Assembly (NCBI RefSeq): GCF_902859765.1
Contig: NZ_CADIJV010000010.1
Coordinates: forward strand, 1-64,000
Direction of reading: 5' to 3'
Origin: Achromobacter pulmonis
GTDB lineage: Bacteria > Pseudomonadota > Gammaproteobacteria > Burkholderiales > Burkholderiaceae_B
DNA: 64,000 bases
Positions 27,371 to 29,494 of the stretch are shown here, in pieces. The position numbers and the translations under genes are program-made. Positions within the stretch are counted from its first letter, which is position 1, and every line of letters begins with the position of its first letter. The notes beneath the pieces are model-generated. The model saw nothing but the letters and a program-made list of their open reading frames with translations. It was not told the DNA's origin and made no database searches.

Positions 27371-29446
27371 ATGCATGTACGTGGCGCTGCCTTGTTCTTG
27401 GCGCTTGCCGCCGTTGGTTCGCCTGCACATGCAGAATTCGAGCAGCAGCTCGGCCCGCTCTCGGGCGCGGTTCGCACGCAGATGCTGCAAGGCTGGACCG
27501 CCGGGGTCGAGGATGGCTGGTTCACGCTGCGCAACAAGGCCCTGGCCGGCAGCGAGCAGACGCTTTACCTGAAAGTCGGGCAGCCGCCGGAGACCGGCCG
27601 CATCACCGACGTGAATGTGGTCCTGAACTCAAAGAATCCCAAGGCATCCATTGGCCTGGCGCTGACCAACCGCGCGCGCAAGGGTTTGTGCCTGTTGGAA
27701 CTCACGGCCGCCAAGCAGACCATCCTGTTCTGTCTGGACGGCGACAAGCGCCGCGATATCGCCAATGTGGCCAATGTGGCCAAGCTGGATGGCTCCGACC
27801 GCATCAAGGTGGTCGAGGTGCCGGGCGCGGCCCGCTTCATTGTCAATGGCCAGAAGATCGGCGATATCGAGAATGAACCCGCGCTGGGTTCCGAACTCGG
27901 CATCATGGCCTACGACGTCGGCACCTTCGGCATCGCCGACTTCGCCATCAATTCGAACATCGCTCCCGCCCAGGGTGGCAAGCCGGCCCAGGGCGGCAAC
28001 GCTCCGCCACCACAGCCGCGCCCCCCCCAGGCGGCGCCGGATTCCGGCAGCAACAGCGGTTTGCCGGGCGCTGGCCCGTACCCGCGCTTCGGCGGCGATT
28101 CGCTGCGCATCGTGGCAGTCTACATCGGCATCATGCGCAGCATCTTCATGCATGAGTTCGGCCACGCCCTGATCGGCGAACTGGAACTGCCTTCGACCGG
28201 CGCCGAGGAAGACGCGGTCGATATCTATTCGGCGCTGCAGATCGTCGAGCCGACCATGTACCCGTCGAGCGACGAGGACACCAACGCCATGGCCCAGGGC
28301 GCGGCCAAGTACGCGGCCCTGCAGTGGTACTACAGCGGCAAGCTGGCCGAGGCCCGGGGCGCTGGCAATTCGCCCTGGCAGGATGAGCACACGGGCGATC
28401 TCAAGCGCTTCCGCAACATGCTGTGCATCATGTATGGCGGCAATCCGGGGGTGTTCGCTTCGCTGGTCGATCAGGTCGGGTTCGAAGATCGCACCAAAGC
28501 GCGTTGCGCCGATGAATTCACCAAGCAGAACCGGGCCTGGCGCCGCATCCTGGCGCCGCATACGCGCGTTGGCGCCTGGTCGCCCGACGGCCAACAGCCG
28601 GCGAACGCGCCCGGCGCGCCGGTGAACGTGACGTTCGAACCGTCATCGCGGCGTATCGGCAACCTGTTCGCCAACAATCTGTCCGACGCCATCACCACGA
28701 ACATCAAGCTGCTCGGCCAGACCTACGTCTTGCCGCGGCCGGTGAATGTGGTCTTCAAGGATTGCGGCAAGCTCAACGCCTGGTACAGCCCGCGCGAAGG
28801 CTCGATCACGATGTGCTACGAGTTGATCGAGAACATCGCGGTGATGATCTCCGACATCGAGATGGGCACGGTCGGCGGCGAGCCCAAGCAGGCCGGAGCG
28901 CCGCAGCGGCAGGTGCCGCAGCCGCCGCCGCGCCAACAGGCGCCGGCGGGCCAGCCGCAACGCGCGCCGGGCGGGGGCTTCGACGAACTGCAGGACAGCG
29001 GCGTGCCGCCGACTACCTTGCTGTTCTCGGCGCCCTACAAGGGGCCGACGCCGACCACGCATCCGCGGGCCAAAGTGATCACCACCAAAGACGTGGTGGC
29101 CTTGCTGACCGACGAAAAGAACAAGAATTTCCTGGTGATCGACACCAGCGGGCAGCGCGAAACCATCCCCGGGGCCTTCCCGCTGAGCGATGCCGGCTCG
29201 GATGGCAGCATCACCGACCAGATGCAGGAAGCGTTCGATGGCTGGCTGCACAAGAAGGCGGGCACCGAGAAAGAACACAATGTCCCCTTGATCATCCTGG
29301 GGGCCGGCATGAATGACCGTTCGGCCTATAACGCCGCGTTGCGCGCCGGGATGATGGGTTGGCCGGTCTATTGGTATCGCGGCGGCCTGGAGGCATGGGT
29401 GGCCAATGGTCTGCCGACCAAGGCTGTCAAATCCCAGGGGCAATAG
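27371..29446 (+). CDS. Secreted DUF4344-like metallopeptidase with permuted motifs and a C-terminal rhodanese-like domain
   Basis: 691-residue exported protein, signal peptide 1-21 (cleavage after AHA). Residues ~25-195 look like a beta-sandwich (repeated strands, FTLRNKALAGSEQTLYLKVG; inferred fold). A Pro/Gly/Gln linker (~200-235) follows. Residues ~245-395 hold FMHEFGHALIGELELPSTGAEEDAVD, with the zinc-binding HEFGH at 261-265, an acidic ED 15 residues on, DEH at 338-340 and CIMYGGNPG at 352-360. Residues ~430-500 hold DCGKLNAWYSPREGSITMCYEL (464-485), a block that precedes HExxH in the DUF4344 proteins I know. A second Pro/Gln linker (~505-535) leads to a rhodanese-like domain (~565-687: VIDTSG, TIPGAF, WYRGGLEAWVANGLP) whose catalytic cysteine position reads LGAGMNDRS. 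Monocistronic. The periplasmic role is unknown. Confidence 0.75.
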   Translation: MHVRGAALFLALAAVGSPAHAEFEQQLGPLSGAVRTQMLQGWTAGVEDGWFTLRNKALAGSEQTLYLKVGQPPETGRITDVNVVLNSKNPKASIGLALTNRARKGLCLLELTAAKQTILFCLDGDKRRDIANVANVAKLDGSDRIKVVEVPGAARFIVNGQKIGDIENEPALGSELGIMAYDVGTFGIADFAINSNIAPAQGGKPAQGGNAPPPQPRPPQAAPDSGSNSGLPGAGPYPRFGGDSLRIVAVYIGIMRSIFMHEFGHALIGELELPSTGAEEDAVDIYSALQIVEPTMYPSSDEDTNAMAQGAAKYAALQWYYSGKLAEARGAGNSPWQDEHTGDLKRFRNMLCIMYGGNPGVFASLVDQVGFEDRTKARCADEFTKQNRAWRRILAPHTRVGAWSPDGQQPANAPGAPVNVTFEPSSRRIGNLFANNLSDAITTNIKLLGQTYVLPRPVNVVFKDCGKLNAWYSPREGSITMCYELIENIAVMISDIEMGTVGGEPKQAGAPQRQVPQPPPRQQAPAGQPQRAPGGGFDELQDSGVPPTTLLFSAPYKGPTPTTHPRAKVITTKDVVALLTDEKNKNFLVIDTSGQRETIPGAFPLSDAGSDGSITDQMQEAFDGWLHKKAGTEKEHNVPLIILGAGMNDRSAYNAALRAGMMGWPVYWYRGGLEAWVANGLPTKAVKSQGQ

Positions 29447-29464: not shown

Positions 29465-29494
29465 AAAGCCCGCTTGCGTGAGCAAGCGGGCTTT
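29465..29494. terminator. Bidirectional terminator between the secreted protein gene and ahpD
   Basis: Perfect 13-bp stem AAAGCCCGCTTGC / GCAAGCGGGCTTT with a GTGA loop. The five As on the left (29463-29467) give a T tract for minus-strand transcripts from ahpD, and the plus-strand side ends CTTTCTTC. It serves two convergent genes. Confidence 0.9.

Follow-up and report, generated by a model that had tools for sequence, protein, structure and literature searches.

We examined a 64,000-nucleotide stretch of the Achromobacter pulmonis genome (contig NZ_CADIJV010000010.1, positions 1 to 64,000; hereafter the window), in which a forward-strand gene at 27371..29446 (ATG start, stop codon included) encodes a 691-residue protein that aligns over its full length with relatives. 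The central domain of this protein belongs to the DUF4344 metallopeptidase family (PF14247) and carries the two halves of the family fold in reversed order; sequence profiles and a structure model support well the reading that it is a true circular permutant of that fold. The loop that links the CYEL helix to the HExxH helix would have been cut and the former C- and N-termini bridged by a short linker, so that the HExxH half comes first, the strand-hairpin half comes last, and both fold as one domain. The swap is a widespread circular permutation in the family and not the oddity of one genome. Taken as a whole, an explanation that combines a permuted core, a single origin and a role as a secreted, glycan-directed zinc endopeptidase seems to us quite probable.

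Reversed halves of a DUF4344 domain

The PF14247 profile matches the protein with 141.2 bits (Pfam cut-off 29.6), split into two stretches. In a search of the genome, profile positions 91-220 matched bases 28127-28552 (E 2.5e-28) and positions 19-74 matched downstream, at 28682-28849 (E 5.5e-11), each passing the cut-off alone; no second DUF4344 match was found elsewhere in the genome. The open reading frame, motif positions and swapped blocks of the preliminary description were thus all recovered. The protein has the HExxH, EED...D, DEH and paired cysteines conserved in DUF4344, but because profile positions 91-220 precede 19-74 we file it as a permuted variant and not as an ordinary member. 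A chance motif match was rejected, since a profile of the usually N-terminal block, made exclusively from usual-order relatives, gave the actual C-terminal stretch 31.3 bits versus at most 5.3 bits in 2000 shuffles.

The catalytic half, usually C-terminal, spans residues 237-400 (28079..28570; profile positions 91-220) as placed by profile and model. It includes the HEFGH zinc-binding motif (residues 261-265, 28151..28165), EEDAVD (residues 279-284, 28205..28222), DEH (residues 338-340, 28382..28390) and YGGNPG, which begins at residue 355. Residues H261, E262, H265, E280 and D284 are present in 40 of 40 permuted rows of our residue table, a count that holds for the kept rows only because six of the loci removed from the table encode permuted proteins that have neither HExxH nor EED; H340 is present in all 72 kept rows. 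An HExxH motif with a downstream glutamate in ExxxD is the defining pattern of gluzincins (clan MA), and it is found here as H261-H265, E280 and D284. The join, which connects the original termini (residues 398-417, 28562..28621), is followed by the usually N-terminal half (residues 418-498, 28622..28864), modelled as a strand, helices, three strands and a helix. Within this half lies DCGKLNAWYSPREGSITMCYEL (residues 464-485, 28760..28825), whose C465 and C482 co-occur among relatives.

For the rotation test we built a profile exclusively from 13 usual-order relatives. In its natural order the domain scored 89.8 bits (profile 93-230), while the same halves rearranged to the usual order scored 117.2 bits (profile 29-230); when the moved part was shuffled 500 times, the best score was 92.1 bits and the mean 90.0. 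A set of 101 two-part permuted open reading frames, which includes many near-copies, has the end of the second piece at profile positions 73-94 and the start of the first piece at 76-99, with four starting later. The piece boundaries nearly meet, and therefore little was lost at the cut, which in these frames separates the CYEL helix from the HExxH helix. In the 21 frames (one protein counted twice) whose matches extend to the two original termini, the join measures 7-26 residues. All 40 permuted rows place C379 and C465 64-95 residues apart, and in 32 usual-order rows the cut region, which runs from position 482 to H261, spans 29-45 residues.

AlphaFold2 modelled the swapped region as one confident domain, with a predicted local distance difference test score (pLDDT) of 87.1 and a predicted template modelling score (pTM) of 0.87; pLDDT falls below 50 at residues 402-407 of the join. 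The full-length model has a pTM of 0.51 and does not fix the relative placing of the three domains. Covariation, based on too few sequences to weigh either way (effective numbers of 91 and 60 for 224 and 217 columns), showed no enrichment between blocks; within the same small alignments, C465-C482 was the seventh-ranked pair in the all-row list. The preliminary description had offered circular permutation or assembly from split halves, and the former is favoured by the rotation test, the near-complete recovery of the profile, the short join and the confident one-domain model.

Distribution and origin of the permuted order

We read the order of the blocks by eye from search tables for whole-genome samples that overlap in part and were drawn within Pseudomonadota. 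The window's own family had a match in 44 of 268 genomes, all 44 of them permuted, by which an assembly artefact was rejected; the window's genus had a match in 37 of 43 genomes. Across the phylum sample, 39 of 398 genomes matched (13 permuted, 21 usual, one genome having both, and six without an assigned order). In the window's own class, Gammaproteobacteria in the GTDB scheme, 14 of 369 genomes matched, with two permuted, nine usual and three not assigned. The class of genome G655, which we take to be Alphaproteobacteria with a Rhodobacteraceae-like family, had 28 matches among 385 genomes: 21 permuted, two usual and five with the N-block only, four of these five being permuted proteins without HExxH. 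In the family of G655, 30 of 149 genomes matched (27 permuted, none usual, three not assigned), counting as permuted one genome, G1429, whose halves lie in two frames. The family of G329 had 25 matches in 99 genomes, 24 permuted (two also with a usual-order copy) and one usual only. Three actinobacterial plasmid copies (L101-L103) have the usual order.

These counts from Pseudomonadota genomes overturn the earlier suggestion that the block order is unusual, as many family members are permuted, an outcome that the preliminary description itself had named as refuting. They do not refute the permutation itself, because usual-order relatives are equally real. Usual-order and permuted DUF4344 genes occur together in genomes G528 (L088) and G1522 (L186). 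In L070 and L165 the permuted gene is spread over two reading frames and is either broken or mis-sequenced, and in L120 the permuted protein has about 155 extra C-terminal residues after the CYEL block.

Three unrooted trees were built on halves rearranged to the usual order. Before the first tree and the residue table were made, 18 loci were removed by hand as duplicates, fragments, weak matches or proteins with lost motifs (L077, L090, L121, L122, L124-L130, L132, L139, L140, L142, L147-L149), L138 fell out, and only 12 of the fused relatives described below were used. In this tree of 72 rows, the 22 usual-order rows without the hairpin cysteine pair split from the rest with support of 100/99, leaving 40 permuted and 10 usual-order rows on the cysteine side. 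All 50 rows of the cysteine clade have both C465 and C482 and the 22 others have neither; the two never occur singly, a pattern consistent with a disulfide that bridges the hairpin. The glutamate of HExxH is missing in 5 of the 32 kept usual-order rows.

One origin is the simplest reading of these sequences: the chain was most likely permuted a single time, in relatives with the hairpin cysteine pair, and the new order would then have spread by descent and transfer. Several independent permutations are what the best trees would suggest if taken literally, as the first requires four order changes and a 67-row tree with five long branches dropped requires three, with none of its bootstrap trees having one. 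A single permuted clade is nevertheless not rejected by the approximately unbiased (AU) test on the first tree (p 0.277). A 63-row tree, for which 22 rows were removed and 13 of 35 usable new rows added, all picked after the earlier trees, places all 42 permuted rows on one side of a single branch (support 73/84) and requires one order change. With the cut region shared and the join similar, we give repeated permutation a small but real chance.

The fused branch and its predicted function

In one fused branch of the family, to which the window protein belongs, the permuted domain sits between a lectin-like domain resembling CBM66 and a rhodanese-like domain from which the cysteine has been lost. 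A probable signal peptide, read by eye from the sequence, occupies residues 1-21 and ends in SPAHA (27371..27433). The N-terminal concanavalin-like beta-sandwich follows at residues 22-195 (27434..27955), and the structure model bears out the beta-rich domain expected there. In fold comparison, residues 21-198 match the beta-sandwich of CBM66 (PDB 4b1m, 4b1l, 4azz), which is among the nearest solved folds, at 11-15% identity. The window copy of the domain has no Pfam match; out of 11 rows, one gave a lone weak hit to another family (E 0.11), and the best E in a PDB sequence search was 0.095. Among 299 sampled genomes, with at most 12 candidates scored in each, the lectin-like domain turned up in one, that of the window.

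The permuted domain is flanked by two probably disordered linkers, the first rich in Gly, Pro and Gln (residues 196-236, 27956..28078; pLDDT below 50 at 197-229) and the second in Gln and Pro (residues 499-537, 28865..28981; pLDDT below 50 at 505-538). The rhodanese-like domain at residues 578-678 (29102..29404) was likewise correctly anticipated, with a PF00581 match of 28.1 bits (cut-off 22.2), and matches TIGR03865 of NCBIfam at 45.7 bits, under that model's cut-off of 128.05. Its GAGMNDR loop (residues 644-650, 29300..29320) has no cysteine and, by comparison with the rhodanese motif, presumably occupies the site of the catalytic cysteine in active rhodanese. No cysteine was found in the last 140 residues of any of 37 fused relatives, and therefore this domain cannot be a cysteine-based sulfurtransferase. 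Azospirillum plasmids H1, H2 and H5 have tblastn matches of 34-36% identity to residues 538-687 only, the rhodanese-like part, and are a possible source of the C-terminal domain.

Close fused relatives number 38 loci; two of these, L058 and L064, are truncated by a contig end, a third, L070, is broken, and the closest are up to 90% identical in their best segment. Three-domain relatives occur in Achromobacter, Bordetella genomospecies 1 and 5, Devosia, Fuscibacter, Brucella grignonensis, Brucella pituitosa, Brucella pseudogrignonensis, an unclassified Rhodobacteraceae bacterium and an unclassified Rhizobiales bacterium. The preliminary description recognized this architecture from no described protein; the fused form is confined to one branch, but the swapped order itself recurs widely among family members. 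Upstream of the permuted domain, Devosia, Fuscibacter and the Rhodobacteraceae bacterium carry an additional, diverged lectin-like copy (L060 5676-6230, L062 1406-1960, L063 5580-6134, L066 5652-6206, L068 5718-6272, L069 5718-6272).

Our best reading is that the protein is a secreted, glycan-directed zinc endopeptidase built on a permuted gluzincin-like core; zinc binding, proteolysis, substrate, glycan binding and secretion are all predictions. Zinc would be held by H261, H265 and E280, with D284 as the ExxxD partner of E280; E262 would act as the general base that activates water, and H340 is a candidate for stabilising the transition state. The lectin-like domain, together with the probable signal peptide, points to an enzyme that is periplasmic or secreted and held near glycans, and the lectin domain would bring it to its glycan-bearing substrate. 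In thermolysin, an N-A-F-W edge strand that precedes the HExxH helix binds substrate, and we checked this order of strand and helix. The NAWY hairpin could be the counterpart of that strand, but the profile comparison did not support this: an hhalign comparison with the thermolysin stretch was not significant and aligned only the HExxH helix. A fold search with the domain model listed no solved zincin among its matches, using chain-order programs that are ill-suited to a permuted fold, and sequence searches found no solved relative of the peptidase part, one of them giving a single chance-level match.

The protein might instead be a non-catalytic binding or scaffold protein, in which a lectin domain and a dead rhodanese accompany a peptidase-like fold kept for structure. 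The absence of the rhodanese cysteine in 37 of 37 relatives would suit such a role, as would the existence of permuted relatives without HExxH (L121, L124, L126, L127, L128, L130), yet HExxH, E280 and D284 are invariant in all 38 aligned rows of the fused branch, and we think this alternative unlikely. The six relatives just named, L126, L127, L128 and L130 from one genus and L121 and L124 from one family, keep the CYEL half and have lost HExxH/EED; as judged from sequence, such permuted proteins without HExxH and EED are likely pseudo-peptidases.

Direction of change, context and related families

Under the single-origin reading, the change would have run from usual to permuted. The opposite, in which the permuted order is older and the usual order derived from it, is left room by the trees, which are unrooted and thus do not fix direction. 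The usual order also occurs in Actinomycetota, whereas the permuted order was seen only in Pseudomonadota, the sole phylum sampled by genome. The usual order also agrees with that of zincins, in which the strand precedes HExxH, and we regard a permuted-first history as decidedly unlikely. That two separately encoded halves with their own histories were fused in reverse order is very improbable: one half alone, or halves in two frames, are seen in L151, L153, L155, L070 and L165, but two intact separate halves were found in none of the six regions inspected nor in L127 or L070, the one-half cases resemble decay or loss, L154 and L156 are sub-cut-off matches that resemble ImmA/IrrE peptidases, and the joins are short, with similar lengths in all cases.

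The window gene lies near IspD, IspF (YgbB), a CMD-family protein and AhpC. Judged by eye from rough gene calls, the gene neighbourhood varies among the loci viewed (one Bordetella, one Brucella, two Devosia and one Fuscibacter), and therefore we draw no functional link from an operon. Together with a branch that spans Alpha- and Betaproteobacteria, the differing neighbours suggest transfer. A terminator-like hairpin, readable on both strands, lies at window positions 29468-29491 between the gene and the convergent CMD-family gene. A phage role was rejected after a tblastn search of 50,697 phage records gave no match and no PHROGs family was hit, and a defence role after no PADLOC family match; no confirmed relative was found in viral contigs with two query alignments.

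Usual-order DUF4344 proteins share with the window protein HExxH, EED...D, the His of DEH and the two cysteines of the catalytic half, and one of their branches also shares the C..xNAxY...CYE hairpin, but their halves stand in the opposite order and they do not have the lectin-like and rhodanese-like domains of the fused branch. The short permuted proteins of other Pseudomonadota share the order, the cut and the join. Unlike the window protein, they are mostly open frames of 239-406 residues, have no lectin-like or rhodanese-like domain in those read, and in the shortest the signal peptide nearly abuts the HExxH helix.

In the literature searched, which included few subscription papers, no title or abstract described an HExxH peptidase core that is circularly permuted in nature. 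Two studies mention DUF4344, one in a domain list (PMC6536674) and one in a table (PMC12828279), and the accession PF14247 appears in one of the two. Imelysin-like proteins, also a bacterial family once listed as peptidases, have canonical and circularly permuted members but are all-helical, and their permuted members are reported only in Bacteroidales (PMC3143127). In the permuted NlpC/P60 proteins (YaeF- and LRAT-like), which unlike DUF4344 are papain-like cysteine enzymes, a hydrolase core is permuted across a large group, and this is reported to be linked to a lipid-specific pocket (PMC12994826).

By analogy, one could imagine that a single permutation founded a large secreted clade of Pseudomonadota, that the new termini opened the cleft to a different class of substrate, and that the fused branch mounts its lectin and former rhodanese on the new ends beside the cleft, giving a glycan-guided hydrolase unlike the usual-order peptidases; this is speculative, and we would expect it to prove wrong. 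For searches of the family there is a warning, as profile and fold methods that follow chain order may split or miss permuted proteins. With both orders present in one phylum, and even in the same genomes, the effects of permutation on folding, specificity and fusion partners can be compared.
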